Assembly: GCA_026125795.1 (NCBI GenBank)
Contig: JAHCKM010000005.1
Span: forward strand, 434,001-498,000
Direction of reading: 5' to 3'
DNA from: Burkholderiaceae bacterium
GTDB taxonomy: Bacteria > Pseudomonadota > Gammaproteobacteria > Burkholderiales > Burkholderiaceae_C
Length of the DNA stretch: 64,000 nucleotides
Numbering within the stretch: the first letter of the stretch is position 1; each line of letters begins with the position of its first letter. The notes below the pieces were generated by a model, which was not told the DNA's origin, did not search any database, and saw nothing but the letters and a program-made list of their open reading frames with translations. Both the position numbers and the translations under genes were made by a program. This document shows, one piece after another, positions 5,745 to 43,060 of this stretch.

Positions 5745-7043
5745 ATGCAGGAGAATTCACCAGTGATCACGCTCGCGGTCGTCGGATTGGGCTATGTCGG
5801 ATTGCCTCTTGCCGTCGAGTTTGGCAAGAAGTTCCGCACCATCGGCCTGGATCTTTCGGTGGAGAAGATCGAAGCGTACAAGCGTCACGTCGACCCCACG
5901 GGAGAGGTCAGCACAGCGGACCTCAAGGCGGCGGTGTACCTGAAACCGACGACCGATGCCGCCGCGCTGAAAGATGCTGACTTCATCGTCGTGGCGGTAC
6001 CTACACCGGTCGACGAGGCCCACATTCCGGATTTCGCACCGCTGATCGGCTCCAGCACTTCGGTGGGCAAGAACCTCAAGAAGGGCGCCATCGTCGTCTA
6101 CGAGTCCACCGTCTACCCGGGCGCCACTGAAGAAGTGTGCATCCCGCTGCTGGAAAAGCACTCGGGGCTGAAATGGAAGCAAGACTTCTTCGTCGGGTAT
6201 TCACCCGAGCGGATCAATCCCGGAGACAAGCAGCACACGCTGACCAAGATCACCAAGGTCGTGTCGGGCGATACGCCGGAAACCCTGGCCAAAGTGGCCG
6301 AAGTCTACGGAGGCATCATCACGGCTGGCGTTCACAAGGCATCGAGCATCAAGGTGGCCGAAGCCGCCAAGGTGATCGAGAACACGCAGCGTGACTTGAA
6401 CATCGCGTTGGTCAACGAGTTGTCGCTGATCTTCCATCGCATCGGCATCGACACTCTCGAGGTGCTGCAGGCCGCGGGCACCAAGTGGAACTTCCTGCCC
6501 TTTCGTCCTGGCCTGGTTGGTGGCCACTGCATCGGCGTGGACCCCTACTACCTGACGCACAAGGCAGAGACACTCGGCTATCACCCACAGGTCATTCTGG
6601 CCGGCCGACGCATCAATGACGGCATGGGTAAGTACATTGCCGAGCAGACCGTCAAGCAGATGATTCAAGCCGGTTTCTCGATCAAGGGCGCCCACATCAT
6701 CGTGCTTGGTCTAACCTTCAAGGAGAATTGCCCCGACCTGCGCAACTCCAAGGTGATCGATGTCATACGCGAACTCGAGAGCTACGGTGCCGCGGTGCAT
6801 GTGCACGATCCGGTGGCCGAGACCGCCGAGGCTGAACACGAGTACGGCGTCAAGCTCGTGTCATGGGAACATCTGCCGCGTGCCAATGCGATCGTTGCCG
6901 CGGTGGCGCACAAGGAGTTCGCCGAGCGGCCGATGGACCAAATGCTGTCCAAGCTGGCGAACGGCGGCGTCTATGTCGATGTCAAGTGCACCGCGGATGC
7001 GCAGGCGCTGAAGGCACGAGGCATCAACGTCTGGCGCCTGTAG
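5745..7043 (+). CDS. tviB: UDP-N-acetyl-D-glucosamine 6-dehydrogenase (TviB/WbpO type)
   Basis: The 432-residue protein has the Rossmann motif [12 protein letters not shown], the family segments VPTPVDEAH and [12 protein letters not shown], the substrate signature SPERINPGD, and the catalytic-cysteine motif [12 protein letters not shown]. It oxidises a UDP-HexNAc C6 to the uronic acid; the sequence is of the VipA/TviB/WbpO group, giving UDP-GlcNAcA or UDP-GalNAcA. I chose ATG 5745, preceded by AGGA at 5731; longer frames lack conservation. The stop overlaps by one base the GTG start of the epimerase, so the pair is coupled. Confidence 0.9.
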
Positions 7044-8080
7044 TGCAACCGACGACCGATGCGATCGCCGAGTCGCTGCGCACTCGGCCGCGGCGCTGGT
7101 TGGTGACCGGCAGCGCCGGCTTCATCGGATCCAATCTGCTGGAGGCCTTGCTCGCCGCTAACCAGCACGTGGTGAGCCTCGACAACTTCGCCACCGGTCA
7201 CCGTGAGAACCTGGACCGGGTGCGTGCCCTCGTCGGCGAGTCGGCTTGGGAGCGGCATACCTTCATCGAGGGCGACATCGCCGACAGCCAGACCTGCCTT
7301 CGTGCCTGCAACGGCATCGACGTCGTGCTGCACCAGGCGGCGCTCGGCTCGGTGCCGCGCTCGATCAAGGATCCGTTGGCGACGCACCGAGCCAACGCCA
7401 CCGGTTTCATCGAGATGCTGGTGGCGGCCAAGGACGCCGGTGTGAAACGGTTCATCTACGCTGCCTCGAGTTCGACCTATGGCGATTCGCTGCAGTTGCC
7501 GAAGGTCGAGGATGTGATCGGTCGCCCGTTGTCGCCGTACGCCGTCACGAAGTACCTCAACGAGCTGTATGCCGACGTGTTCGGCCGCTGCTATGGGCTG
7601 GCGACAATCGGATTGCGCTATTTCAACGTGTTCGGTCCGCGCCAGGATCCCCAAGGAGCTTACGCCGCGGTGATCCCACGCTGGGTGTCCGCCATGCTGG
7701 CCGGGCGTTCCTGCACCATCAATGGCGACGGCCGCACGACACGCGACTTCTGCTACGTGGCCAACGCCGTGCAAGCCAATCTGCTGGCAGCTACCACCGA
7801 AAACCCGCAGGCGATCGGACAGGTCTACAACGTTGCCTGCGGAGAACAAACCAGCCTGCTGGATCTGCACTCGCTGATCGCCGATGCGCTGCGCGCTCGG
7901 CGGCCGTCGTTGCGCATCGGAGCCCCGCGGTTTGCCGAGTTCCGCGAAGGTGACATCCGGGACTCGTTGGCCGACATCAGTAGGGCCCGCGAGCTTCTCG
8001 GCTACCGGCCGAGCCACCACATTCGCGACGGCTTGCATGCGGCAGTCGATTGGTACATTGGGGCGTCGACCTCGGCGTAG
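7043..8080 (+). CDS. tviC: UDP-HexNAc(A) 4-epimerase (TviC/WbpP type)
   Basis: An extended short-chain dehydrogenase of 345 residues with the NAD motif GSAGFIGSN, the Ser-rich AASSSTYGD loop and the catalytic [18 protein letters not shown] and RDFCYV motifs are as in WbpP/TviC/Gne epimerases. The start is GTG 7043, overlapping the last base of the tviB stop. Together the two enzymes interconvert the Glc and Gal series of UDP-HexNAc and its uronic acid, so a GalNAcA residue in the polymer is likely. Specificity for the acid or the neutral sugar cannot be read from sequence alone. Confidence 0.88.
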
Positions 8081-8218
8081 GGCACTTCGTGGCTCCCACC
8101 GGCCGCATCCGACAACCCAAACCGCACCTGCGGGATGCAGCGTCGGCACGATCGGAGAAAATGCAGGCTGTTTGGCCATTGGCCTCCGCGCAAATGAGCC
8201 GGAGCGTTTCGTGTCTAC

Positions 8219-9574
8219 ATGAAGATCACCATCAGCGGCTCGGGCTACGTCGGACTTGTCACCGGCGCGTGCCTGGCGGAAATGGGCAACCACGTGATGT
8301 CACTGGACGTGGACCCGCGAAAGATTGCCGTCCTCCAGTCGGGAGGCGTGCCGATACACGAGCCGGGCCTGGATGTCCTGATCCAGCGCAACGCGAAGGC
8401 CGGGCGCTTGCAGTTCACCACCGACATCGAACGGGCCGTGCAACACGGCACGGTGCAGTTCGTTGCAGTGGGCACGCCTCCTGGTGAGGACGGATCGGCC
8501 GACTTGAGCTACGTGGTCCAGGCCGCGCGCGCGATCGGTGAGCGCATGACCGACTACAAGCTGATTGTTGACAAGAGCACGGTGCCGGTGGGCACCGGCG
8601 ACGTGGTGGAAGCCACCGTCCGCGAGGCGTTGGCTGCGCGCGGGGTCGAGCTTCAGTTCTCGGTGGTGTCCAATCCGGAGTTCCTGAAGGAAGGCGCGGC
8701 GATCGCCGACTTCATGAAGCCCGATCGGGTGATCGTCGGCAGCGAGGATGATGATGAGCGCGCGATTCACCTGATGCGCGCCTTGTACGCCCCATTCATA
8801 CGCAACCGCGACCGCCTGCTGGTGATGGACGTGCGCAGCGCCGAGCTGACCAAGTACGCAGCCAACGCGATGCTGGCCACGCGCATCAGCTTCATGAACG
8901 ATCTGGCCAACCTGGCCGAACGCCTGGGCGCCGACATCGAGCTCGTGCGCCAGGGCATCGGCAGTGATCCGCGCATCGGCACGCAGTTTCTCTATCCCGG
9001 CTGCGGCTACGGGGGCTCGTGCTTCCCCAAAGACGTGCGCGCGTTGCTGCACACCGGCGAACAAGCCGGCCTCGGCCTGCCGGTTCTGCGCGCGGTCGAA
9101 GCGGTCAACCACGGGCAGAAGCGACTGCTGGTCGACAAGATCGTGGCGCGCTTCGGTGAAGATCTCACCGGGTGTCGCTTCGCGCTCTGGGGGCTCGCCT
9201 TCAAACCGGGCACCGACGACATGCGCGAGGCGCCCAGCCTGGTGGTCATGCGCGAGCTGATCGACCGCGGCGCGCTGGTGGTCGCCTACGATCCCGTTGC
9301 GCTGGACGAGGCCCGGGCGCGCACGGCGCAGTGGCACGGGGTGGAGTTCGCCACCAGTGCGGCCGAAGCAGTGAAGGGCGCGGATGCGCTCGTCATCGTC
9401 ACCGAATGGAAGGAGTTCCGCAGTCCTGACTTCGATGCGCTGCGCGCCGGCCTCAAGCAGCCGCTGATCTTCGATGGTCGCAACCTGTTCGACCCGCTGT
9501 ACCTGACGGGCCTCGGGTTCGACTACCGCTGCGTCGGACGGGCCGCGGTTCAGGCGGCGGGCGACCCACGCTGA
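8219..9574 (+). CDS. ugd: UDP-glucose 6-dehydrogenase
   Basis: A 451-residue UDP-glucose dehydrogenase: the NAD motif [17 protein letters not shown] starts at residue 7, [16 protein letters not shown] and KSTVPVGTG follow, and the catalytic-cysteine motif is [27 protein letters not shown] is the conserved C-terminal domain signature. It converts UDP-Glc to UDP-GlcA. It is separated from tviC by 138 bases without visible coding and its stop shares one base with the wecB ATG. Having both Ugd and TviB in one locus predicts two different uronic acids. Confidence 0.95.
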
Positions 9575-10722
9575 TGGACCGCCAGCCCGCCGGCCACTCG
9601 ACATCGGGCGATAACGCCCCGCTGATCGACATCATCGCCGGCGCCCGCCCCAACTTCATGAAGATCGCGCCGATCATTCGAGCGATCGACGCGCGGCGCG
9701 CGCAAGGCAGCCGTCTGCGTTGGCGCCTCGTGCACACCGGTCAGCACTACGACGCGCGCATGTCGGCCGATTTCTTCGAGCAGCTCAACATTCCCGAGCC
9801 TGACGTGAACCTCGAGGTGGGTTCCGGTTCGCAGGCCGAGCAGACGGCGGCCATCATGATCCGCTACGAACAGCTGCTGATGAAGCAGCGCAGCAGCCTC
9901 TGCCTGGTGGTGGGCGATGTCACCTCCACCATGGCCTGCGCGATCACGGCGCAGAAGTTGTGCATCCCGGTGGCGCACGTGGAGGCGGGCATCCGCTCGG
10001 GCGACTGGCGCATGCCGGAAGAGATCAATCGCATGGCCACCGACGCGGTGACGAACTACTTCTTCACCACCAGCGAGGTGGCCAACGACAACCTGCGCCG
10101 CAACGGGGTGCCAGAGGAACGGATCTTCTTCGTCGGCAACACGATGATCGACACGTTGCTGGCTCACATGAGCCGCTTGCGGGCGCCGGCCTTCTGGGAA
10201 ACGATGGCGCTCGTCCCGGGTGAGTACTTCGTGATGACCTTGCACCGGCCTGCGAACGTGGACACGGAGGCGGGTTTTCGCTCGGTCCTCCTGGCCGTCG
10301 CCGATGCCGTGCGTGGGATGAAGGTCGTCTTCCCGGTCCATCCGCGCACCGCCAAGACCTTGAGCGCACTGGGCGGCTTGCCGCCGAATCTGTTGCTCGT
10401 CGAGCCGCAGCCGTACCTCGAGTTCAACTACCTGGTGAAGCATGCCAAGGGCGTCATCACCGACTCCGGCGGGGTGACCGAGGAGACCACCGTGATGGGC
10501 GTGCCCTGCGTGACGATGCGCGACTCCACCGAGCGGCCGGAGACGGTGGACATCGGCACCAACGAGCTGATCGGTACCGACCCGGTCCGGCTGCGGCCCA
10601 CGCTGGACCGGCTCTTCGCCAACCAATGGAGGCGCGGGTCCATACCGCCGCTTTGGGACGGGCGGACCGGCGAGCGCATCGCAGCCGAGCTCGAGCGGGT
10701 GCTCGACGCCGGCAACAGCTGA
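9574..10722 (+). CDS. wecB: UDP-N-acetylglucosamine 2-epimerase (non-hydrolysing)
   Basis: The 382-residue protein has all expected WecB residues: Arg and Lys in GARPNFMKIAP, HTGQHYD, Asp in VVGDVTST, Glu in HVEAGIRSGD, PEEINR, His in TLHRPANV, and the UDP-binding segment TDSGGVTEET with ERPET. It interconverts UDP-GlcNAc and UDP-ManNAc. It starts on the last base of ugd. Its intact active site is a useful contrast to the degenerate copy of the same fold fused to the ATPase at 40907-43060. A WecG-type transferase (30331-31122) could use the ManNAc made here. Confidence 0.94.
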   Translation: MDRQPAGHSTSGDNAPLIDIIAGARPNFMKIAPIIRAIDARRAQGSRLRWRLVHTGQHYDARMSADFFEQLNIPEPDVNLEVGSGSQAEQTAAIMIRYEQLLMKQRSSLCLVVGDVTSTMACAITAQKLCIPVAHVEAGIRSGDWRMPEEINRMATDAVTNYFFTTSEVANDNLRRNGVPEERIFFVGNTMIDTLLAHMSRLRAPAFWETMALVPGEYFVMTLHRPANVDTEAGFRSVLLAVADAVRGMKVVFPVHPRTAKTLSALGGLPPNLLLVEPQPYLEFNYLVKHAKGVITDSGGVTEETTVMGVPCVTMRDSTERPETVDIGTNELIGTDPVRLRPTLDRLFANQWRRGSIPPLWDGRTGERIAAELERVLDAGNS

Positions 10723-13631: not shown

Positions 13632-13791
13632 GGACCTCCTCCTGGAGTCCTGAGGGCTCACGGGCGGGCGCCGGCAGCACCCGGTGAGCCGCGGCGCGAG
13701 CCGCTCCCGCCTCGTTGCGCCTCCCTCGAATGCGCGTGCGTTGGCTCGATTCGGGCTTTGCAGCCCGTCTGACGGGCGATGATGTCGGACC

Positions 13792-14913
13792 ATGCAAGCA
13801 GTTAAGAAGACGGCGCTGATCACCGGGATCACCGGGCAGGACGGGGCGTACCTGGCGGAGTTGTTGCTGGGCAAGGGATATGTGGTGCACGGTGTCAAGC
13901 GCCGGAGTTCGCTGTTCAACACCGACCGCATCGACCACCTGTACCAGGACCCGCACGTGCAGGACCAGCGCCTGGTGCTGCACTACGGGGACCTGACGGA
14001 CTCCACCAACCTGATCCGCATCGTGCAGCAGGTGCAGCCCGACGAGATCTACAACCTCGCGGCGATGAGCCACGTGGCGGTGAGCTTCGAGACCCCGGAG
14101 TACACCGCCAACGCCGACGCGCTGGGCACGCTGCGCATCCTGGAGGCCATCCGGATCCTGGGGCTGGACAAGAAGACGCGCTTTTACCAGGCCAGCACCT
14201 CGGAGCTGTACGGGCTGGTGCAGGAGACCCCGCAGAAGGAGAGCACGCCGTTTTACCCGCGCAGCCCCTACGCGGTGGCCAAGCTCTACGGCTACTGGAT
14301 CACGGTGAACTACCGCGAAGCCTACGGGCTGTACGCCTGCAACGGGATCCTGTTCAACCACGAGAGCCCGATCCGCGGCGAGACCTTCGTGACGCGCAAG
14401 ATCACGCGCGCGATGGCGCGCATCGCGCTGGGGCTGCAGGACTGCCTGTACCTGGGCAACCTGGCGGCGTTGCGCGACTGGGGGCACGCGCGCGACTATG
14501 TGCAGATGCAGTGGCTGATGCTGCAGCAGGACAAGCCCGAGGACTACGTGATCGCCACCGGGGTGCAGGTCAGCGTGCGGCAGTTCGTGGAGCTGGCGGC
14601 GCAGCAGCTGGGCGTCACGCTGGAGTTCCAAGGTCACGGCGAGCACGAGGTGGGCCGCGTGGCGCAGGTGCAAGGCACGCGCGCCAGGCTCAAGCGCGGC
14701 GACGTGATCGTGCGGGTGGATCCGCGGTACTTCCGGCCCACCGAGGTCGAGACGCTGCTGGGCGACCCCAGCAAGGCGCGCGAGCGGCTCGGCTGGACAC
14801 CGACGACCACGCTGCAGCAACTGGTGGCCGAGATGGTGGAGGCCGACTACAGCGCCGCCAAGCGCGACAGCCTCGTCAAGCTCGCCGGCTTCCAGGCCTT
14901 TGACTACAACGAG
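13792..14913 (+). repeat. Inverted repeat of gmd, left arm
   Basis: The gmd coding sequence is repeated in opposite orientation at 36060-37181. By eye the copies differ at only about six or seven positions in roughly 1.12 kb, mostly third codon positions. Similarity begins at the ATG and ends at the last sense codon: flanks and stop codons (TAG here, TGA there) differ. Confidence 0.9.
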
Positions 14914-14916
14914 TAG
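13792..14916 (+). CDS. gmd: GDP-mannose 4,6-dehydratase, copy 1
   Basis: A 374-residue extended SDR with [15 protein letters not shown], the active-site Tyr/Lys in [24 protein letters not shown] and the C-terminal [16 protein letters not shown], all diagnostic of Gmd. It makes GDP-4-keto-6-deoxymannose, the precursor of GDP-L-fucose. The protein differs from the second copy (36057-37181) at one residue only (Arg versus Gln in SKARE(R/Q)LGW). No fucose synthase follows this copy; instead a deacetylase does. A 160-base gap after epsL contains no gene. Confidence 0.95.
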
Positions 14917-23701: not shown

Positions 23702-24865
23702 ATGATCCATCAGTCCCGAACAACAAAGCCACGCCATTCGAGCATGAGTGCAGCGATCATGCTGCTTCTGTCGGCTTGCGGAGGAAGTGGCGGCGGCACA
23801 TCCACCGAGGCCGAAGCATCGGGCGAGTCGCCCACCGTGGCGGAGGTGGCATGGTCGCAATGCGCCACCGAAGGCGGCACCTGCTCCTTCTCCGGCACTC
23901 GCGCCGTGCGATACGGCACCTCCGACAAGTTCAACACGCTCACCGCCAGCAATGGCGTCTCCTGCACGAACCAGGTGTTCGGTGACCCGGCCGTGGGCGA
24001 GTTGAAGACCTGCTGGGTTGGGGGCAATGGGGCCAGCACCCCCGCGGCGCCGCCGACGCCGGCGGTATCGCCGAACAGTGGCTCGGCAGGTCCGCGTGTC
24101 AGCTCGTTCTCATCGTCCGGGCCGATCGTCGCCAGTGCCGGCCAGGTCATCGCCGGTGTGCGGATCCAGAATTCCGGCGGCCCTTGCATCACCATCCCCG
24201 CCGGCGCCACCGGAGTGGTTGTGCGCGACTCCGACATCGGACCGTGCGGCGGCAGCGCCAACATCCTGATCGAGGGTGCGAACGCGACCGTCGAATACTC
24301 CTTCGTTCACAACGGCAATCGCGGCGTGCTGGCGCACCACACCAGTGGCGCCGTCACCCGCAACAGCAAGTTCGACACCTTCTACGGGCCCAAATTCAAC
24401 GGCACCGCGATCGAGTACGACTACATGGACGGCGGCGTGATCGACGGCAACGTGGTCACCGGCAGCAACTACGCGAGCGATGCGGTGAGCTCGTACGAAA
24501 GCTCCGGCATCCGGATGACCAACAACCTCATCGACATCAATGTGGCCGAGCCGTCGGCGGCCGCTTTCACGATGGGCGATTCCACCAGCGGCAAGCCCGG
24601 CGCCAACAACTACGTCGCCGGCAACATCGTGCGCCAGAGCGGCGGCGTACCGGCCGGCGTGTTCGGCTCCAACGGCAACACCGTCCTCGAGAAGAACTGC
24701 CTCACCGCCGGCATCCAGGCCTACAACTACTCCGGCGTGTTCGTCGGTGTGACGGTCCGGAACAACGTCATCAACATGGCCGCCTCGTTCGTCCCCGACG
24801 CCTCCGCCATCGCCGGCTGGGGGACCAATATCAATTCGACGAACTGCGCTCTGGTTCCCAACTGA
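23702..24865 (+). CDS. Lipoprotein with right-handed parallel beta-helix domain (paralogue A)
   Basis: The 387-residue protein has a lipoprotein signal with lipobox LLSAC (Cys near residue 26) followed by a Gly/Ser/Thr linker. A small domain (WSQCATEGGTCSFSGTRAV) comes next, then from about residue 135 a region of short repeated strands with Asn/Gly ladders (GGVIDGNVVTGSNY, NNYVAGNIVRQSGG). This looks like a right-handed parallel beta-helix, as in polysaccharide lyases and C5-epimerases. It probably sits on the cell surface or outer membrane and may act on or bind the EPS; catalytic residues cannot be assigned. The gene at 25010-26524 is a close, convergent paralogue. Confidence 0.75.
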   Translation: MIHQSRTTKPRHSSMSAAIMLLLSACGGSGGGTSTEAEASGESPTVAEVAWSQCATEGGTCSFSGTRAVRYGTSDKFNTLTASNGVSCTNQVFGDPAVGELKTCWVGGNGASTPAAPPTPAVSPNSGSAGPRVSSFSSSGPIVASAGQVIAGVRIQNSGGPCITIPAGATGVVVRDSDIGPCGGSANILIEGANATVEYSFVHNGNRGVLAHHTSGAVTRNSKFDTFYGPKFNGTAIEYDYMDGGVIDGNVVTGSNYASDAVSSYESSGIRMTNNLIDINVAEPSAAAFTMGDSTSGKPGANNYVAGNIVRQSGGVPAGVFGSNGNTVLEKNCLTAGIQAYNYSGVFVGVTVRNNVINMAASFVPDASAIAGWGTNINSTNCALVPN

Positions 24866-25009: not shown

Positions 25010-26524
25010 TCACTTTGGCAGCAGCGAGCAGTTGGTCGAGTTGATGTTGGTGCTCCATCCTGCGATAGCCGACGTGTCGGGGACAAACGAGGCGCCCATG
25101 TTGATCACGTTGTTCCGGACCGTCACGCCGACGAACGCACCCGAGTAGTTGTAGGCCTGGATGCCGGCAGTGAGGCAGTTCTTCTCCAACGTGGTGTTGC
25201 CGCCGGAGCCGAACACGCCGGCCGGTACGCCCCCGGTCTGGCGCACGATGTTGCCGGACACATGGTTGTTCACTCCGGGGTTTCCGGTGGTCGAGTCGCC
25301 CATCGTGAAGGCGGCCCCGCTGGGCTCGGCCATGTCGATGTCGATCGTGTTGTTGATCAGCTTGGCGTTGCTGCTCTCATAGAACGACACCGCGTCACTC
25401 GCGTAGGCGCGACCGGTGACCAGATTGCCTTCGATCACGCCGTACTGGGTGCGGTCGTATTCGATCGCCGTGCCTTTGAACTTTGGGCCGTGGAACTGGT
25501 TGAACTTGGAGAACCGCGTCGTCACGTTGCTCGCCCCGTCGACGAGCACCCCGCGCGCTCCATCGTGGACGAAGCTGTATTCGATCGTGGCGTTGTTTCC
25601 CCAGACCACGATGTTGCCCTCACCCTCGCACGGACCGATGTCGGAATCGCGCACGACCACACCGGTGACGCCGGAGGGGATCGTGATGCAGGGGCCGTTC
25701 GGGTTGCTGATCCTCACCCCGGCGATGATCTGGCCGGAGGTGGCAGTGATCGGCGCCGAGACCGTGAATGTGGAAACTCGCGGTCCAGGGGCATTGGTTG
25801 CCGGTGCCGGTGCCGGTGCCGGTGCCGGTGCCGGTGCCGGTGCCGGTGCCGGTGCCGGCGCGGGGGCAGGTGCCGGCGCGGGCGTTGGAGTCGGTGAGGG
25901 CGCCGGGCTTGGTGCAGGCGCCGGGACCGGCGCGGGAGCCGGACTCGGCGTAGGCGATGCCGTGACCGGTGCGCTGGTCGTCGTGCTGCTGTGCGAACAG
26001 AGGTTCTCGTAGTTGGTGGCAGGCGCCTGGAACGCGCTGTCGACGCACGCCACCGCGCCATCGGCAACACGAGTCAGGACGCGGCTGCCGTCGATGGCGG
26101 CGTATCGCACCTCACGTCGACCCGAGAACGTGCAGCTGCCTCCCTCCCTGGCGCAGTGAACCCAGCTCGACGTGGCAGGAGCGGGTGCCGGAGCTGGCGT
26201 CGGCGACGGGGCCGGCGCGGGTGCTGGCGTCGGCGCAGGAGCCGGCGCCGTTGATGGGCTGGGCGCGGGTGCCGGCGAAGGGTTGAGCGTGCCGCCGCCG
26301 AGCCGGCGCCTCCATTTGCCGAACAGAGCGTCGGCCGATTCGCCGCTGATGCCGGTGGGTTCGACGACCACGCCTGCACCGGTGCTGCCACCAGCTTGTT
26401 CGAGCCCTTGACCGGTTTCTGAACTGCCGCCGCACGCGGCCATCATCATCGTGACGCAGGTCGTGATCGTTGCGCCGCGCAAGCGAGCATCTGATTTCGG
26501 TTGCAGTGCCTTTGACGTGTTCAC
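25010..26524 (-). CDS. Lipoprotein with Pro-Ala linkers and right-handed beta-helix domain (paralogue B)
   Basis: GTG 26524, preceded by AGAGG, gives 504 residues. The signal ends in lipobox MMAAC. A first Pro/Ala linker (about residues 83-118) leads to a small Cys-containing domain (WVHCAREGGSCTFSGRREV). A second, longer Pro/Ala linker encoded partly by a perfect hexamer repeat follows, then a beta-helix domain. The last ~260 residues match paralogue A closely (for example NCLTAGIQAYNYSG in both), and the DNA is also similar there. The added linkers could carry the domain out through a capsule layer. Function is unknown; surface binding or modification of EPS is an inference. Confidence 0.75.
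   Translation of the reverse strand: MNTSKALQPKSDARLRGATITTCVTMMMAACGGSSETGQGLEQAGGSTGAGVVVEPTGISGESADALFGKWRRRLGGGTLNPSPAPAPSPSTAPAPAPTPAPAPAPSPTPAPAPAPATSSWVHCAREGGSCTFSGRREVRYAAIDGSRVLTRVADGAVACVDSAFQAPATNYENLCSHSSTTTSAPVTASPTPSPAPAPVPAPAPSPAPSPTPTPAPAPAPAPAPAPAPAPAPAPAPAPAPATNAPGPRVSTFTVSAPITATSGQIIAGVRISNPNGPCITIPSGVTGVVVRDSDIGPCEGEGNIVVWGNNATIEYSFVHDGARGVLVDGASNVTTRFSKFNQFHGPKFKGTAIEYDRTQYGVIEGNLVTGRAYASDAVSFYESSNAKLINNTIDIDMAEPSGAAFTMGDSTTGNPGVNNHVSGNIVRQTGGVPAGVFGSGGNTTLEKNCLTAGIQAYNYSGAFVGVTVRNNVINMGASFVPDTSAIAGWSTNINSTNCSLLPK
25800..25853. repeat. Perfect tandem hexanucleotide repeat (GCCGGT x9)
   Basis: Nine uninterrupted copies of GCCGGT encode alternating Ala-Pro in the longer linker of lipoprotein B; imperfect GC-rich copies continue to about 25950. 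Because the unit is six bases, copy-number change would alter linker length and keep the frame. Confidence 0.95.
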
Positions 26525-27093
26525 CTGGGAAGTACCTCTGCTCAGGAGTCGCCCCAAACGCCGTGGCGCGAGGGTCAGCTCGTGTCCCTTCGACTCTGAA
26601 GTTAGTGATCTGTGCGATCGCCTATTGGCACGTCGATACAACGTGGCGCGCGCAGTTTCGTGGCGCAACTCGAACGCTCTGTAAGCGCGAGGCCGGGTTC
26701 GTAACGACGAGCACACGCGGTCGATGCTTCGCGTGCGGATTCGCGTCAGATGTCGTCGTTGCTCGAGCAATGCGACGTCAGCTCTGCGGCGGATGATCGT
26801 GAGGCCGCGTTGGCGATCGCATGTTCGCGATGGCGTCACCAAGGCGGATGCGGCGGCGCGAAGCGCGCACTCCGTCACGCATTCAACGCGGACACGCCGT
26901 TTCCAATCGGCTAATGGCGCCGCCCTTGCGGGGCGTTTGGCCGTGACGCGAAGACCAGCCCGAGCGTTGCGCCAGTGCCGATATCATGGATCCGCGGTGC
27001 GATGCGTTTCGGCACGATCGTTGGGACTTTGTTGCGCAATGGCACAGGCACCAACAGTCGACGTGCGGCATCCGTCGCAAGGACTCAACCCGT
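26525..27093. other. 569-base divergent intergenic region
   Basis: This gap separates the leftward lipoprotein B from the rightward glycoside-hydrolase-like lipoprotein, so it should contain two promoters. I see no protein with recognisable features, no strong -35/-10 pair, no RNA gene and no long inverted repeat. Open frames crossing it are Arg/Ala-rich and look like GC-driven artefacts. Confidence 0.6.
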
Positions 27094-36056: not shown

Positions 36057-37181
36057 TCACTCGTTGTAATCAAAGGCCTGGAAGCCGGCGAGCTTGACGA
36101 GGCTGTCGCGCTTGGCGGCGCTGTAGTCGGCCTCGACCATCTCGGCCACCAGTTGCTGCAGCGTGGTCGTCGGTGTCCAGCCGAGCTGCTCGCGCGCCTT
36201 GCTGGGGTCGCCCAGCAGCGTCTCGACCTCGGTGGGCCGGAAGTACCGCGGATCCACCCGCACGATCACGTCGCCGCGCTTGAGCCTGGCGCGCGTGCCT
36301 TGCACCTGCGCCACGCGGCCCACCTCGTGCTCGCCGTGACCTTGGAACTCCAGCGTGACGCCCAGCTGCTGCGCCGCCAGCTCCACGAACTGCCGCACGC
36401 TGACCTGCACCCCGGTGGCGATCACGTAGTCCTCGGGCTTGTCCTGCTGCAGCATCAGCCACTGCATCTGCACGTAGTCGCGCGCGTGCCCCCAGTCGCG
36501 CAACGCCGCCAGGTTGCCCAGGTACAGGCAGTCCTGCAGCCCCAGCGCGATGCGCGCCATGGCGCGCGTGATCTTGCGCGTCACGAAGGTCTCGCCGCGG
36601 ATCGGGCTCTCGTGGTTGAACAGGATCCCGTTGCAGGCGTACAGCCCGTAGGCTTCGCGGTAGTTCACCGTGATCCAGTAGCCGTAGAGCTTGGCCACCG
36701 CGTAGGGGCTGCGCGGGTAAAACGGCGTGCTCTCCTTCTGCGGGGTCTCCTGCACCAGCCCGTACAGCTCGGAGGTGCTGGCCTGGTAAAAGCGCGTCTT
36801 CTTGTCCAGCCCCAGGATCCGGATGGCCTCCAGGATGCGCAGCGTGCCCAGCGCGTCGGCGTTGGCGGTGTACTCCGGGGTCTCGAAGCTCACCGCCACG
36901 TGGCTCATCGCCGCGAGGTTGTAGATCTCGTCGGGCTGCACCTGCTGCACGATGCGGATCAGGTTGGTGGAGTCCGTCAGGTCCCCGTAGTGCAGCACCA
37001 GGCGCTGGTCCTGCACGTGCGGGTCCTGGTACAGGTGGTCGATGCGGTCGGTGTTGAACAGCGAACTCCGGCGCTTGACACCGTGCACCACATATCCCTT
37101 GCCCAGCAACAACTCCGCCAGGTACGCCCCGTCCTGCCCGGTGATCCCGGTGATCAGCGCCGTCTTCTTAACTGCTTGCAT
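36057..37181 (-). CDS. gmd: GDP-mannose 4,6-dehydratase, copy 2
   Basis: The 374-residue protein is identical to copy 1 (13792-14916) except for one Arg-to-Gln change in SKAREQLGW; the same motifs ([21 protein letters not shown]) are present. ATG 37181 is preferred because similarity to copy 1 starts exactly there; an upstream in-frame start at 37229 would add 16 residues absent from copy 1. It is followed by fcl and preceded by epsG, so it supplies the fucose branch inside the leftward operon. Confidence 0.95.
36060..37181 (-). repeat. Inverted repeat of gmd, right arm
   Basis: This is the reverse-orientation partner of 13792-14913, about 21 kb away, with roughly 99% identity by eye. It is long enough for homologous recombination, which would invert the DNA between the arms. 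Confidence 0.9.
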
Positions 37182-37253
37182 GTTGATCCAGGCGCTGGTG
37201 GTCACGACGCGGTGCTCCCTCCGCGTCAAGACAATCGCGACCCATCCAACGAA

Positions 37254-38243
37254 TCAATACTCGTTCATGATCACGCCCGCCATGCGGGCGGTGCTGTCGG
37301 ACAGCGCACTCACGAGCTTCTGCAGGGCACCGACCTTCGATGAGTTCTTGCGCGCCACGACCAGCGCGGCGCCGCAACGTGCGGCAACCACCTGGGCGTC
37401 CACGCCATACATGGCGGCGGGAGTGTCCACGATGACATGGTCAAACTTGGACGTCAGCTCACGCAGCAGGATTCCAAATGCAGGCCGCTCGATCAGTTCG
37501 AGCGGATTCGGGGGCGTCACCCCGACCGGCATGATGAAAAGATTGGCGGTCTCGGGTACTTGCTGAATGACCTTTGAGTCGACATGGCCGGCCAGCACGC
37601 TCGACAGGCCGGTGGTGTTGTCCACTTTGAACACCTCGTGCTGGCGGGGGCCGCGCAGATCGGCATCGACGATCAACGTTCGCCCGCCCACCTGGGCCAG
37701 CGCCACCGCGAGGTTGGCGCTGAAGAACGTCTTGCCGTCACCCGACGATGGGCTGACGATCGCCAGTGCGGGACGGGGCTTGGACTTGAACACCCGCATC
37801 ATCACCTGGCTGCGAATCTCGCGGATCGCCTCGGCCTGCAGGGAGAACGGCTGGTTCAGGCCGACCAGCTCCGGCATCTGCTTGCGGCGCTCCTCGCTGG
37901 CGTAGGCATAGCCAAACTGCTCGGCGAGCGCTTGCAGCACCTGGTCCTGGGAGACCAGCTTCAGGGCCACCGCCGCGTCACCGAACCGCACGCCGTTCTC
38001 GCGTGCGTAAGTGAGGATGCGTTCCACCTGGTCCGGACCCAGCTCGACCTTGGTGCTGAGAATGGCACCGATCAGGCGCTCGGGAGCGACACTGTCGTCG
38101 TGCGAGTTGAACAGCGATCGGTGCGCCCTCGTGCCCTGCACCTTGGCCACGACTCCGGGAATCAGATCCACCTCGACCGGCGGCGCGAGCGTCGACTCGG
38201 TACGCTCTTCTCCGAGCGTCGGATTTTCGATTCTTCTCATCAT
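37254..38243 (-). CDS. epsG: EpsG-type tyrosine kinase / chain-length control ATPase with MshEN-like N-domain
   Basis: The 329-residue protein has a BY-kinase ATPase core: Walker A SPSSGDGKT at about 164-172, Walker A' LIVDADLRGPR at 190-200 and Walker B HVIVDTPA near 269. Residues 57-109 look like the MshEN domain: two 24-residue motifs separated by exactly five residues, the second being close to the consensus (RFGDA... to ...QALAEQ). Such domains bind c-di-GMP in type II/IV secretion ATPases. The usual tyrosine-rich tail is missing; a single Tyr is the last residue. It overlaps epsF by 4 bases and should partner EpsF in controlling polymer length. Confidence 0.9.
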   Translation of the reverse strand: MMRRIENPTLGEERTESTLAPPVEVDLIPGVVAKVQGTRAHRSLFNSHDDSVAPERLIGAILSTKVELGPDQVERILTYARENGVRFGDAAVALKLVSQDQVLQALAEQFGYAYASEERRKQMPELVGLNQPFSLQAEAIREIRSQVMMRVFKSKPRPALAIVSPSSGDGKTFFSANLAVALAQVGGRTLIVDADLRGPRQHEVFKVDNTTGLSSVLAGHVDSKVIQQVPETANLFIMPVGVTPPNPLELIERPAFGILLRELTSKFDHVIVDTPAAMYGVDAQVVAARCGAALVVARKNSSKVGALQKLVSALSDSTARMAGVIMNEY

Positions 38244-39679
38244 GCTTCCCTGCCGGGTGCCGGCAACCTCCGCAAGAAACCGCTGGACGTCACGAGCGGC
38301 ACGCGCGGTCCGATGAACCGTCCCTTGCCGCCGGGCTTCGGCAACACGCCGAGAAGCGGCAGACCGAGCACCTCGGACACCTCGTCATCGGTGCGCACCC
38401 TTCGGTCGACGTATTCGAGGAGGATCACGGCCGCGATCGCCAGCACGGACCCGATCACGATCGATACCACCACGTTGCGCAGCACGTTGGGCGACGACGG
38501 CGCGAACGGGGCAACGGCCTGCGCCAGCGGATACGAATTGCTCTGTGTGGTCTGGCTTTCAAGCGTGGTCTGGTTCAGGCGTGCCATCACCGCCTCGTAG
38601 GAGCGCTGGGCCGCATCCACGTCGCGCACGAGCACGGCGCCTTCCTCACGCGCCGTGCGCATGCGCAAGACCCTTGCGCGCTGCACCTCGAGGGCCGTGC
38701 GGATCTCGGCCTCGCGCTGCCGATTGATCGAGTTGCTGACGCCAAAGGTGCCGGTCACGCGGCGCGTCTCGGCGTCCAGGCGTCCACGCAGCGACGAGAT
38801 GCTGGCCTTGGTCTCGATCACCTGGGGGTGGTTCTCGCCCAGGCGCGAGCCGAGCTCCTGGAGCTTGGCCTCCGCACGCGTGATTTCGGCTCGCAGGGCG
38901 GACAGGGTCGGATTGTTCACAACCTCCTGCAGTCGATCCGCGGCGCCCGCCTGGGCCTGCATCTGCCGGCTGCCCGATTCGGCGGCCACTGCCTGAAGCG
39001 CCACCAACTGGGACGACAGCTCGTTCAGGCGCGCCGTCTCGACATCCATCTGTCCGTCAGAGGCGATGACCACGCCTTTCTCGCGTTGGTAGGCCGAAAG
39101 CCTTGCCTGGGCCTTCTCCAGGTTGGCTCTGAGCTCCCGCGCGCGGCTGTCGAAGAACGATGAGTACTGCTTTGCCGGATCGACGCGCAGTTCCAGGTTG
39201 ACGTCGAGATATGCCTGCACGAAGAGATTGGCCACGGAGGCCGCTCTCACGGGATCCGGATCCTTGAAGCTGACGCTGATGACGTTGGAGTCGCGCGACG
39301 GCTTGACGTCGAGCGACAACTGGATGCGATCGACCAGCCAGGCGTCGAAGTTGCCCTCGCCGCCAGATTCTTCTTGCCACGCCTGGCGCACGGCGGGGTC
39401 GTTCGCCAGCCCCAGCTTGCGAATCACGTTTTGCGCGACACGATCACTCTTCAGCACGTCGACCTGAGTCGCCATGAACGCCGGGGTCGGGTTGCCGTTG
39501 AACGCATTGCCGGACACCGGGTCGGGACGGCTCTGGTCGACCACCACCGTGGCCACCGCGGTGTATTTCTTCGGCAGCAGCAGGCTGGCTCCGACGGCCA
39601 GGCCGACCGTGAGCGCGAGGATCAACAGGGCCACGCCCCAGCGCGCCCGGATGATGGTCAGGAATTGGCCGAGGGTCAT
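38240..39679 (-). CDS. epsF: EpsF-type chain length determinant protein (Wzz/PCP family)
   Basis: A 479-residue inner-membrane protein with the Wzz fold: an N-terminal membrane helix (ALLILALTVGLAVGASLLL, about residues 16-34) and a C-terminal helix (VVVSIVIGSVLAIAAVILLE, about 400-420). A long coiled-coil periplasmic region containing LRVDPAKQYSSFFDSRARELR and SLRGRLDAETRRV lies between. It sets EPS chain length together with EpsG, with which it overlaps by 4 bases, and with the outer-membrane exporter EpsE, 24 bases upstream. Confidence 0.92.
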   Translation of the reverse strand: MTLGQFLTIIRARWGVALLILALTVGLAVGASLLLPKKYTAVATVVVDQSRPDPVSGNAFNGNPTPAFMATQVDVLKSDRVAQNVIRKLGLANDPAVRQAWQEESGGEGNFDAWLVDRIQLSLDVKPSRDSNVISVSFKDPDPVRAASVANLFVQAYLDVNLELRVDPAKQYSSFFDSRARELRANLEKAQARLSAYQREKGVVIASDGQMDVETARLNELSSQLVALQAVAAESGSRQMQAQAGAADRLQEVVNNPTLSALRAEITRAEAKLQELGSRLGENHPQVIETKASISSLRGRLDAETRRVTGTFGVSNSINRQREAEIRTALEVQRARVLRMRTAREEGAVLVRDVDAAQRSYEAVMARLNQTTLESQTTQSNSYPLAQAVAPFAPSSPNVLRNVVVSIVIGSVLAIAAVILLEYVDRRVRTDDEVSEVLGLPLLGVLPKPGGKGRFIGPRVPLVTSSGFLRRLPAPGREA

Positions 39680-39703: not shown

Positions 39704-40543
39704 CTAGAAGAGACTTTCGGGCACCTGCACCACGTCATCCGGCAGCAGGGGTTCCTGCAGCCCGGGCGTCAGCACCTGCGTCACTCCGTCCGCGCCTTTG
39801 CGATGCACGCGGATCCCGCGCTGCGTGCCGCGTGGCGTCAAGCCTCCGCCGGCGGCCAGCGCCTGCAGGATGTTCATGCCGCGTTCCAGGCGGAGCGTCC
39901 CGGGCTTCTGCACTTCGCCGTAGATGTAGATCTGCGGCTGCCGATCGACGTAGACGACATCGTTGTTCTGGATCACCATGTCCTGCGATTGGGCGTCGCT
40001 GCGGAACAAGGTGCGAAAGTCGATCTGCGTCCGAAACGGCTTGCCGTCGCGCGTGCCCACCACGGTGAGGATGTCGCTGCCGTCCGGCGCGACACCTCCG
40101 GCCAACGCCATCAGATCGGACAAGCGTGTGTTGGTCACTTCGAGCGTATAACGTCCCGGCCTCACGGCGTGCCCGAGCACCGAAGCCTGTGCACCACGCA
40201 ACTGGGTGACCAGGATCGACACTTGAGGTTGCTTCAGGAACTTGCCGGTCAGCAATCCGTTGGCGATGCGTTGTTCGGCCTGGCTGATCGTCAACCCGCC
40301 CAGGGTCACGGCGCCGAGCAGCGGATAGTTGACGACACCGGTTTCAGGAATGCGCGCCTCGAGCGACAACTCCGGACTCTGGAACACCGTCACGCGAACG
40401 ATGTCGCCGGCACCGAGCACGTAGTCGGTCTTGGCGACCGCCGGCGCTTGAGCGCGTGGGGCCGGCGCCTGCGCGCGTGCAGGCCCCGTGACGATCAAGA
40501 TGAGCAACGCGAGCGCGAACCACGCGAGGGAATAGCCTTTCAT
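39704..40543 (-). CDS. epsE: EpsE-type polysaccharide export protein (Wza/OPX family)
   Basis: From ATG 40543 the protein has 279 residues: a Sec signal cleaved after ARA (about residue 24), the Poly_export domain (YVLGAGDIVRVTVFQSPELS... to PETGVVNYPLLGAVTLGGLT), and SLBB domains (GHAVRPGRYTLE, GEVQKPGTLRLE). It forms the periplasmic/outer-membrane export channel. Unlike E. coli Wza it lacks a lipobox cysteine. A TTG start nine codons upstream (40570) is possible. It is the first gene of the leftward run to 28286 and divergent from the ATPase fusion gene. Confidence 0.92.
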   Translation of the reverse strand: MKGYSLAWFALALLILIVTGPARAQAPAPRAQAPAVAKTDYVLGAGDIVRVTVFQSPELSLEARIPETGVVNYPLLGAVTLGGLTISQAEQRIANGLLTGKFLKQPQVSILVTQLRGAQASVLGHAVRPGRYTLEVTNTRLSDLMALAGGVAPDGSDILTVVGTRDGKPFRTQIDFRTLFRSDAQSQDMVIQNNDVVYVDRQPQIYIYGEVQKPGTLRLERGMNILQALAAGGGLTPRGTQRGIRVHRKGADGVTQVLTPGLQEPLLPDDVVQVPESLF

Positions 40544-40906
40544 TCCTGCCACAGCCTTTCCAGTCCGCAAAACAGCCGCTCCCCAATCGATGGCGACATC
40601 AAGTAGGCAGCACGCCTTCCCGCTTTGGCCACGGTCGAAGAAGTCTAATGCTCGGTGCTTTCTCGGCGCCCACCCGACTCAGGGGAGCGTATTCTCCATC
40701 GCCGTCACGCCGCGTGTGCAAGCATGTTTTCCCATGGGCAAGCGGCCCCCGGCAACAACAACTGCGAAGGCAACGCAACCGCCGCTTTGCCGATCGCGGG
40801 GGTGTCGCCCCACTGCATTTCAGACACAATCGTTCGTCTGGGTGTCGGGGCGCGGGGACGTCGCATTTCGTGGCGTGCCGCCGCCTGACCCTCGAGGGCA
40901 TGGGAC
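40544..40906. other. 363-base divergent region between epsE and the ATPase fusion gene
   Basis: The region should hold promoters for both the long leftward EPS operon and the rightward ATPase gene. I find weak candidates only: TCTAAT near 40645 (minus strand ATTAGA) and ACACAAT near 40827 on the plus strand, neither with a good -35. No coding sequence, RNA or sigma-54 site is evident. Confidence 0.5.
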
Positions 40907-43060
40907 ATGTACGAGAGTCACTTCGGCCTGACTGGGTCGCCGTTTCAGCTGAACCCGGATCCGTCGTTCTACTTCGACAGCCGCGGTCACAGCAACGCCC
41001 TCTCGTACTTGAAGTTCGGCGTGCACCAGGCCGAAGGCTTCATCGTCGTTACAGGCGAGATCGGGGCCGGCAAGACCACGCTGGTCAGAACACTTCTTAG
41101 CGAACTCGACAGCAACGAGGTGGTCGCCGGGCAGATCCTGAACACCCAGCTCGAGTCCGGGGAATTGCTGCAATCGATCCTCACTGCGTTCGGCGTCGCC
41201 TCGCAGGGCCAGTCGAAGGCGCAGCTGCTGGCCAGCCTGGAAGCGTTCCTGACCGAAGTCGCCGCCGAGGGCCGGCGTGCGCTGTTGATCGTCGACGAGG
41301 CACAGAACCTCGGGCCCGAGGCCATCGAAGAGATTCGCATGCTCTCGAACTTCCAGCTCGAGAACCACGCCTTGCTGCAAAGCTTTCTGGTGGGGCAGCC
41401 CGAACTGCGCAAGCAGCTCGAGTCCCCCGCTCTGGAGCAACTGCGCCAGCGTGTCATCGCATCGTGTCACCTCGGGCCCTTGACCGCCGATGAAACGCAG
41501 GCGTATGTCGAGCATCGGCTGCGCCATGTCGGATGGGATGGGAGACCTTCCTTCGGCGAAGGTGCCTTTGCCGGCATCTATGCCTGGACCGGCGGCATCC
41601 CGCGGCGCATCAACCTGTTGTGCAATCGCCTGCTGCTTGCCGCGTTCCTCAACGAGCTGGAAGACATCTCGGCGCAGCTCGTCGAAGACACCGGCGCCGA
41701 GCTCGTGCGCGAGACGGGGGGTGCGCGCGGCCTCGCGACGATGCCCAACCGCAAGGCCGAGGCGGCTGCATCGCCCGGCCAGGGGGCGGATGGACCCGCG
41801 GGCGCGCTCGAGCGTCGAATGCTGGCGCTCGGCGAGGGCGAGGTTGTGCGCGTGCCGCGCGCGCATGAAGACCTGCAGGGGCTGCGGCCGTTGGTCTGTA
41901 TCGCGGACACACCCCTGGGCTACATGAAGTTCGCCGCGCTCGCGGCCTCACTCGGTGCGGATCCGGACATGCCGCCCGTCGTCCTGGTCAATCCTGGGCC
42001 GGCCAGCGCGATCGAGATCGAGGAAACGCCGGCGGACATCGGCAAGGCGCTCGCCGCGGAGATCCACCTCGGCGTGGTCAGTGCATCGGTGGCCGACAGC
42101 ATGGCCAGCGTGATCATGCGATTGGGCGAACTGCTCGACGAGCTGGCCCCGGTCGCGGTCATCTGCGAGGGCATCAGCGACGCGATCCTCACCAGCGTCT
42201 ACCTGGTCAGCAAGCGCGGCATTCCGCTGGGGCGGCTGGGAGCGGGACAGCGCCGCGAGATGCAGACGCTGACCTGCGACCTCAACGCCGTGATGATGGA
42301 CCGCATGTCCGAGGTGCTGTACACGCCCACGCTGAAGACGCACTACACCCTCTATCGGGAGGGCATTCCGGCCAATCGCATGGTATGCATCGGCAACCTC
42401 CTGAGCGACGCGCTGCGTGTGGCGCTGGCGCCGCAGCCTCCAGTGTCCGAGTTGCTGAAGTCGATGGGTCTGTCGCGCGACCTGATGCGGCGCGCCATGC
42501 GCGGCTTCGTGCTGGTAAGCGCCCAGGTTGCCGAGGGCGACCTCAAGGCGAGCGACCTTTCAAGCGTCGCGCGCGTGGCGCGCGATCTGGGCAAGGAAAC
42601 CTTGGTGGTCTGGGTGGTGACGCAGGCCACGCGCGACGCGATCGCCGGCAGCAAGGCCGACGCACTGCTGCAGCGCTCCGGTGTGGTGCTGGCGCCGTAC
42701 TCGGGGTATCAGGTTCAACTGGGCTTGATGCGTGGCGCGATGTGCGTGATCGCGGGGCCGGGCTGGAGCCTGGTCGAAGAAGCCGACACCGTGGACGTGC
42801 CGAGCATCGTGCTGTACCCCGGCGGTGAGGTGCCAGCCGGCGCGCCGGGTGGCGTGATCGCGAAGATTCCGTGCGACTCGGTGGCCTGCATGCGCGCCCT
42901 GCATGAGATCCTCGAGCGCGGCCGTGCCGACGATGAAGTCGTCGACGATTCCGAAGGCGCAGCGGCGACCCGGTTGATGGAGCACTTACGGCGCTGGCTG
43001 CCACCCGCGCTGCCCACCCGCGCCAGCCGCTCCAGGAGCACCGACGTCCCGAGCGCCTGA
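40907..43060 (+). CDS. GspA/ExeA-type AAA ATPase fused to a degenerate UDP-GlcNAc 2-epimerase domain
   Basis: This 717-residue protein starts as the exosortase-associated secretion ATPase family (MYESHFGLTGSPFQLNPDP; Walker A GEIGAGKT at 50-57; Walker B LLIVDEAQN at 126-134; YAWTGGIPRRINLLCNRLL). That family normally ends by about residue 300-350. After an Ala/Gly-rich linker (270-300), residues ~326-680 align with the whole WecB fold: EGISDAILTSVYLVSKRGIP, NAVMMDRMSEVLYTPT, GIPANRMVCIGNLLSDAL. By eye its catalytic positions are replaced (Asp to Glu421, Glu to Gly445, Glu to Cys457, His to Ala539; the UDP-site DSGG is GPGW). I infer a sugar-nucleotide-sensing, non-catalytic domain coupled to an ATPase. 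Confidence 0.85.
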   Translation: MYESHFGLTGSPFQLNPDPSFYFDSRGHSNALSYLKFGVHQAEGFIVVTGEIGAGKTTLVRTLLSELDSNEVVAGQILNTQLESGELLQSILTAFGVASQGQSKAQLLASLEAFLTEVAAEGRRALLIVDEAQNLGPEAIEEIRMLSNFQLENHALLQSFLVGQPELRKQLESPALEQLRQRVIASCHLGPLTADETQAYVEHRLRHVGWDGRPSFGEGAFAGIYAWTGGIPRRINLLCNRLLLAAFLNELEDISAQLVEDTGAELVRETGGARGLATMPNRKAEAAASPGQGADGPAGALERRMLALGEGEVVRVPRAHEDLQGLRPLVCIADTPLGYMKFAALAASLGADPDMPPVVLVNPGPASAIEIEETPADIGKALAAEIHLGVVSASVADSMASVIMRLGELLDELAPVAVICEGISDAILTSVYLVSKRGIPLGRLGAGQRREMQTLTCDLNAVMMDRMSEVLYTPTLKTHYTLYREGIPANRMVCIGNLLSDALRVALAPQPPVSELLKSMGLSRDLMRRAMRGFVLVSAQVAEGDLKASDLSSVARVARDLGKETLVVWVVTQATRDAIAGSKADALLQRSGVVLAPYSGYQVQLGLMRGAMCVIAGPGWSLVEEADTVDVPSIVLYPGGEVPAGAPGGVIAKIPCDSVACMRALHEILERGRADDEVVDDSEGAAATRLMEHLRRWLPPALPTRASRSRSTDVPSA

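Follow-up and report, generated by a model that had tools for sequence, protein, structure and literature searches.

This locus raises the question of why an ATPase of the type that accompanies exopolysaccharide (EPS) export should carry, in the same polypeptide, the fold of a UDP-GlcNAc 2-epimerase from which the catalytic residues have been lost. The gene lies within a stretch of 64,000 nucleotides, the whole of which is called the window here. The first-pass annotation had read it as a secretion-type ATPase joined to a degenerate epimerase, and had suggested that it senses the supply of nucleotide sugars. The gene and its parts are as follows:

40907..43060, + strand: fused gene, XrtA-type AAA ATPase plus non-catalytic epimerase fold; a single ORF of 717 aa
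40907..41707, + strand: ATPase domain, residues 1-267; TIGR03015, 376.6 bits
41054-41077, + strand: Walker A motif GEIGAGKT, residues 50-57, read in the sequence
41288-41293, + strand: Walker B acidic pair D128-E129, read in the sequence
41708..41881, + strand: linker, residues 268-325; low model confidence, no transmembrane-like stretch
41882..42997, + strand: non-catalytic UDP-GlcNAc 2-epimerase fold, residues ~326-697; PF02350 and Foldseek

The open reading frame is uninterrupted, and the reading of 40907-43060 as one gene was borne out. The N-terminal score exceeds the curated cut-off of TIGR03015 (324.5 bits), the family of the XrtA/PEP-CTERM-associated ATPase, and the Walker A and B patterns were found in the window gene as in 42 of the 42 fused proteins collected below; the secretion-type ATPase with intact motifs was thus correctly recognized, its GspA/ExeA-like character being a relation that we assume for the TIGR03015 ATPase. 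Residues 383-692 matched Epimerase_2 (PF02350) with 79.5 bits, above the gathering cut-off of 30.6, and all 12 solved-structure sequences that matched the fused protein were 2-epimerases, with the best stretches inside residues 339-699. Annotation by the Pfam match alone would suggest an epimerase, whereas the score against the WecB equivalog TIGR00236 was 58.2 bits, far under its cut-off of 210.15. An orthologue in an Ideonella MAG showed 68% identity (best segment) across residues 1-712. Of the 42 fused proteins, 37 had a linker long enough to score, and its hydropathy over 19 residues did not exceed 1.48; the highest value in the epimerase domain of the fused proteins was 2.12, which was read as buried core. 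The protein is predicted to be a cytoplasmic AAA ATPase of an EPS-export module. A promoter and terminator scan of window positions 40500-41000 found neither.

The C-terminal fold was also recovered by structure prediction. AlphaFold models were made from shallow alignments (5 rows for the full length, 4 rows for the domain), and they lean towards the WecB fold because intact WecB rows were included. With such alignments, the full-length model had a mean pLDDT of 62.4 and a pTM of 0.48, with residues 270-320 of the linker below 50, and the domain-only model had 67.7 and 0.68, respectively. In Foldseek searches against the PDB, 47 of the 50 matches listed for the full-length model carried 2-epimerase names, as did 49 of the 50 listed for the domain model, with a probability of 1.00 in both runs; the remaining match of the domain model was CapG, a capsule synthesis enzyme. 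Over both runs, the other matches outside the 2-epimerases were one named NeuC and one whose title is uninformative. The TM-score by target ranged from 0.56 to 0.73 among the 50 matches listed for the domain model, whose alignment contained intact WecB rows. The predicted fold agrees with the epimerase fold proposed at first, both in the Pfam match and in the model, with the bias that the intact WecB rows impart.

The catalytic residues of the active enzymes are, as we take them with their E. coli numbering, Asp95, Glu117, Glu131 and His213, and the names and numbers of the pocket residues are assumed likewise; the 17 pocket positions are our own choice from conserved motifs. By alignment to intact enzymes, these four positions are occupied by Ile423, Gly445, Cys457 and Gln540 in the fused protein, and the DSGG of the intact enzymes became GPGW at residues 617-620. 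The earlier mapping by eye was right for Gly445, Cys457 and GPGW; it had placed Asp95 at Glu421 and His213 at Ala539, which shift by two residues and one residue, and the loss of catalytic residues stands with this correction and extends over the clade. Among 42 fused ORFs, none of the four core residues was kept in 17, one in 19 and two in 6, while 14 of 14 unfused epimerases (12 from XrtA loci and 2 generic) kept all 17 pocket residues. A first set of 30 loci, which overlaps with this larger one, gave 11 fused loci with most of the active site lost (one core residue kept in each of L007, L010, L013 and L027) and 19 unfused loci that retained D, E, E, H and SGG. The fused domain would thus be expected to lack epimerase activity. 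Ancestral residues were retained at 0.298 of the pocket positions and at 0.361 of the other columns that are invariant in active enzymes, and the permutation P of 0.20 points to general drift; a targeted loss of the pocket was not supported.

The joining of the two domains recurs. With the window included, at least 42 fused ORFs were found in at least 41 loci of at least 39 genomes and at least 13 genera, all in one GTDB family, one locus (L067) holding two of them; they were called with profiles built in this analysis, and both domains were required. An assembly or frameshift error joining two genes was ruled out, because 41 other fused ORFs occur in 40 other loci. Sixty loci had been fetched, comprising every listed family match with a frame of at least 650 aa, plus others. 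For comparison, 64 of 200 genomes of the host's family matched the C-terminal half at E <= 1e-8, a count that takes in true epimerases, and 139 of 399 family genomes had a TIGR03015 match over the cut-off. Wider searches covered overlapping samples of the class, order and phylum (369, 399 and 398 genomes; E-value limits 1e-90, 1e-97 and 1e-85). Of the long-frame TIGR03015-like loci fetched from the class sample (frames of at least 582 aa), 23 of 24 were without an in-frame epimerase domain, the exception being L098 (see below); 6 of 6 long-frame ATPases fetched from the order sample were without one too. Two family genomes taken as further candidates (G356 and G288, loci L074 and L075) likewise encode the ATPase with no in-frame epimerase domain. 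These other ATPases share the long open frame, and some of their tails are OmpA-like or TonB-like by eye. Among the open-access matches listed, titles and the beginnings of abstracts did not describe the fusion, most subscription papers lying outside this scope, and the word 'epimerase' is absent from the main text of the 2006 PEP-CTERM paper (PMC1569441), of the Aquincola floc paper (PMC9850573) and of PMC8929069.

Locus L098 (genome G459), from the same class but a different family, also encodes a TIGR03015-type ATPase followed by an epimerase in a 740-aa frame (6887-9106). It differs in that all 20 key positions checked are kept and in that it falls outside the fused clade, so it is probably a separate fusion. 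Fusion does not always mean loss of activity-related residues, and L098 offers a natural control.

Where the C-terminal half came from was addressed with two trees, in both of which long branches leave some placements unsure. The own genome has two Epimerase_2 genes, the fused gene and the following one:

9574..10722, + strand: intact WecB with active-site residues present; TIGR00236, 303.2 bits; of a lineage different from the fused domain

In the ATPase tree (65 rows), a branch with 100/100 support parts 17 solo ATPases from 42 fused and 6 solo ones; the position of six fused rows, which are of a diverged second type and have long branches, is uncertain. The six solo ATPases within the fused clade cluster together (97/91), and this cluster joins the window's genus (92/93), a pattern consistent with a single fusion after which the domain was lost once. 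The epimerase tree (34 rows) comprised 19 fused rows of at least 300 bits, 12 wecB genes from XrtA loci of the family, L098 and 2 generic WecB, the 23 more diverged fused rows (<300 bits) being left out. Here the 19 fused rows formed one group (100/100) and joined the 12 XrtA-locus wecB (99/99), with L098 and the two generic WecB apart. The window's own WecB, to which the domain had been compared at first, is thus not its closest relative, and descent from it is unsupported by a tree in which generic WecB are represented by two rows. Of the 17 solo loci, 12 have a free-standing wecB that abuts the ATPase gene or overlaps it, and no separate wecB was found in the other 5. The simplest reading, which the trees fit, would be a single old fusion of the ATPase with a neighbouring active wecB. 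Loci L076, L077 and L079, whose solo ATPases belong to the fused clade, each hold a further ATPase-epimerase fusion, strongly diverged, at a distance of 2-5 kb; it looks as though paralogues had shared out the two halves.

The neighbourhood ties the fused gene to EPS export. Three export genes lie beside it in the window:

39704..40570, - strand: EpsE, Wza-like export protein, divergent from the fused gene; TIGR03028, 315.4 bits, above cut-off
38240..39679, - strand: EpsF, chain-length determinant; TIGR03017, 507.6 bits, above cut-off
37254..38243, - strand: EpsG-like tyrosine autokinase; TIGR03029, 260.7 bits (below the cut-off of 313.8), and TIGR01007, 133.1 bits (above cut-off)

Of the 41 fused loci, 32, 30 and 30 contain clear export, chain-length and kinase genes of the XrtA type, and 32 an outer-membrane protein gene. 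In these loci all four lie upstream of the fused gene on the same strand, at median offsets of about -5.4 kb (export), -4.3 kb (chain-length), -3.0 kb (kinase) and -1.9 kb (outer-membrane). By NCBIfam, one member of each was named TIGR03027, TIGR03007, TIGR03018 (below its cut-off) and TIGR03016, respectively. If weaker cross-matches in the window, L054 and L056 are counted as well, the figures for export, chain-length and kinase genes rise to 35, 33 and 33; the partners in these three loci differ, being EpsE (TIGR03028 type), EpsF (TIGR03017 type) and an EpsG-like kinase (TIGR03029 type) that are divergent from the fused gene. No EpsE, EpsF or EpsG-like genes were seen in L060, the fourth locus of the window's genus (17.4 kb, at a contig end). 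The link with EPS export that had been proposed for the window therefore holds across the fused clade. The EpsG-like kinase at 37254-38243 (- strand) also bears, in its N-terminal part (residues 58-109), a weak resemblance to a c-di-GMP-binding domain related to MshE (31.8 bits, cut-off 38).

The fused loci differ from those of known XrtA/PEP-CTERM ATPases, which they resemble in the ATPase domain and the export neighbours, by the additional epimerase fold and by the exosortase. An exosortase was found in 0 of 41 fused loci vs 16 of 20 unfused loci, with profiles grown from single queries (for the exosortase, one exosortase of the own genome) over loci that reach about 9 kb on each side, some of the fused ones being short (8.5 kb in L054, 10.3 kb in L069) and the window being counted over 30000-52000 only; an exosortase of very divergent sequence might have escaped notice. 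Among the unfused loci, the four in which none was found are L078, L080 and L081, which are solo loci of the fused clade, and L082 on an 8.9-kb contig. The two exosortases of the own genome lie on contigs C1 and C4, and the window on C5. Among the matches listed, fused proteins scored 351-386 bits against TIGR03015 and solo ATPases of XrtA loci about 385-425 bits. WecB/MnaA, the non-hydrolysing UDP-GlcNAc 2-epimerase (PF02350, TIGR00236), has the same fold and length as the fused domain, which differs by its replaced catalytic and UDP-site residues and by its low equivalog score. At the window's beginning (13-2477), an acyl-CoA ligase (TIGR03098) and a decarboxylase (TIGR03099), both above cut-off, bear names of the exosortase A system-associated type.

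The recurrence of this join in at least 13 related genera suggests that what was once an enzyme now serves the ATPase as a structural or regulatory part. We give about an even chance to the reading that this pseudoenzyme is kept as a scaffold or docking module of the EPS-export ATPase, a role that is reached by elimination. The ancestor would have been an XrtA-locus ATPase that fused with an active wecB directly downstream; the module would have persisted without an exosortase beside the gene while the epimerase half lost its catalytic residues, and the fold would have been retained by selection, most likely as a structural module. Either the old dimer surface of the epimerase may pair ATPase protomers, or the domain may dock the ATPase on a partner in the export machine, which could be the chain-length protein, the autokinase or the export channel. 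Against a scaffold it can be said that the six solo ATPases nested in the fused clade manage without the domain, that the pocket has drifted no faster than other columns invariant in active enzymes, and that invariant pocket columns in the window's genus hint at a kept pocket.

The dead domain is under purifying selection, which bears on the possibility that it is a decaying remnant of the fusion with no present role. The Nei-Gojobori method was applied to 13 pairs of fused genes picked by hand, three of which include the window gene, and gave a dN/dS of 0.07-0.34 for the domain, 0.025-0.44 for the ATPase and 0-0.84 for the linker. The domain lay above the ATPase in 11 of 13 pairs, and one subclade of six ATPases is without it, as decay would predict; against this, the domain values are low and were exceeded by those of the linker in 12 of 13 pairs, and we regard a vestige as very improbable. 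Interrupted fused copies were not seen among loci picked by long open frames, a choice by which broken ones could be missed. Nearly as improbable, in our judgement, is a cleft rebuilt for another substrate or chemistry with Asp425 and the kept Arg449 and Asn460, even though the conservation weights over 39 fused rows are high at Asp425 (0.83), Gly447 (0.97), Arg449 (0.92) and Asn460 (0.76) and the Asp425 position is Asn or Thr in unfused enzymes. Arg449 and Asn460 are ancestral, and the residues conserved across these rows are for the most part Gly, Ala, Leu, Pro, Val, Cys or Trp, as expected of a structural fold, with Asp425, Arg449, Asn460, Arg491 and Arg689 as polar exceptions. This composition favours a fold kept for its structure. 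In one pair, L072 (8347-10617) and L073 (7896-10289), the dead epimerase domain is 86% alike and the ATPase only 60%.

The sensor proposed at first, in which the dead domain would bind a nucleotide sugar or UDP and couple its supply to the ATPase and to EPS export, was not supported across the family, and we consider it unlikely. It would need a kept pocket, so that drift in the pocket counts against it: His213 is kept in 1 of 42 fused ORFs, Arg214 in 2, Gly291 in 6 and Gly292 in none. The fold nevertheless appears to be retained at full length, and the adjacent Glu pair of the old UDP site (21/42 and 24/42), Asp289 (27/42) and Lys15 (26/42) are better kept. Nine fused subclades, which together take in 36 of the 42 ORFs, were compared. 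In eight of them invariance is no commoner among pocket columns than elsewhere; the ninth, the window's genus, has 14 invariant columns among the 17 of the pocket vs 57% of all columns (P = 0.024, uncorrected and weak as one of nine tests), so that sensing may persist there. In unfused active enzymes 17 of 17 are invariant. The difference between the eight subclades and the active enzymes favours a structural over a ligand-binding role. For the window's genus, it is improbable that the altered cleft has become a conserved site for a new ligand and the fused protein a ligand-gated AAA ATPase; if it were so, a former sugar-nucleotide enzyme would be a control subunit of EPS export in loci without an exosortase.

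On the preferred reading, that of a scaffold or docking module, a known ATPase family carries a pseudoenzyme whose origin can be traced. Nature offers here a clean case in which an enzyme became a non-catalytic part, and both states survive in one family: the ancestral one, separate, active and beside the ATPase gene, and the derived one, fused, without the catalytic residues and under selection. The change is accompanied by the lack of a neighbouring exosortase. The fusion also suggests a physical link between a little-studied ATPase family and the adjoining sugar-nucleotide enzyme in exosortase loci, and through it the part that the ATPase plays in EPS export becomes open to experiment.

Two further features of the window were observed. 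The convergent genes at 23702-24865 (+ strand; no NCBIfam match at 1e-5) and 25010-26878 (- strand) encode products with C-terminal parts that look alike by eye. Inverted copies of one gene, presumably a GDP-mannose 4,6-dehydratase, lie 21 kb apart at 13791-14914 (+ strand) and 36059-37182 (- strand) with 99.5% identity over 1124 bp, and these copies within the EPS locus are a possible site of inversion or gene conversion.
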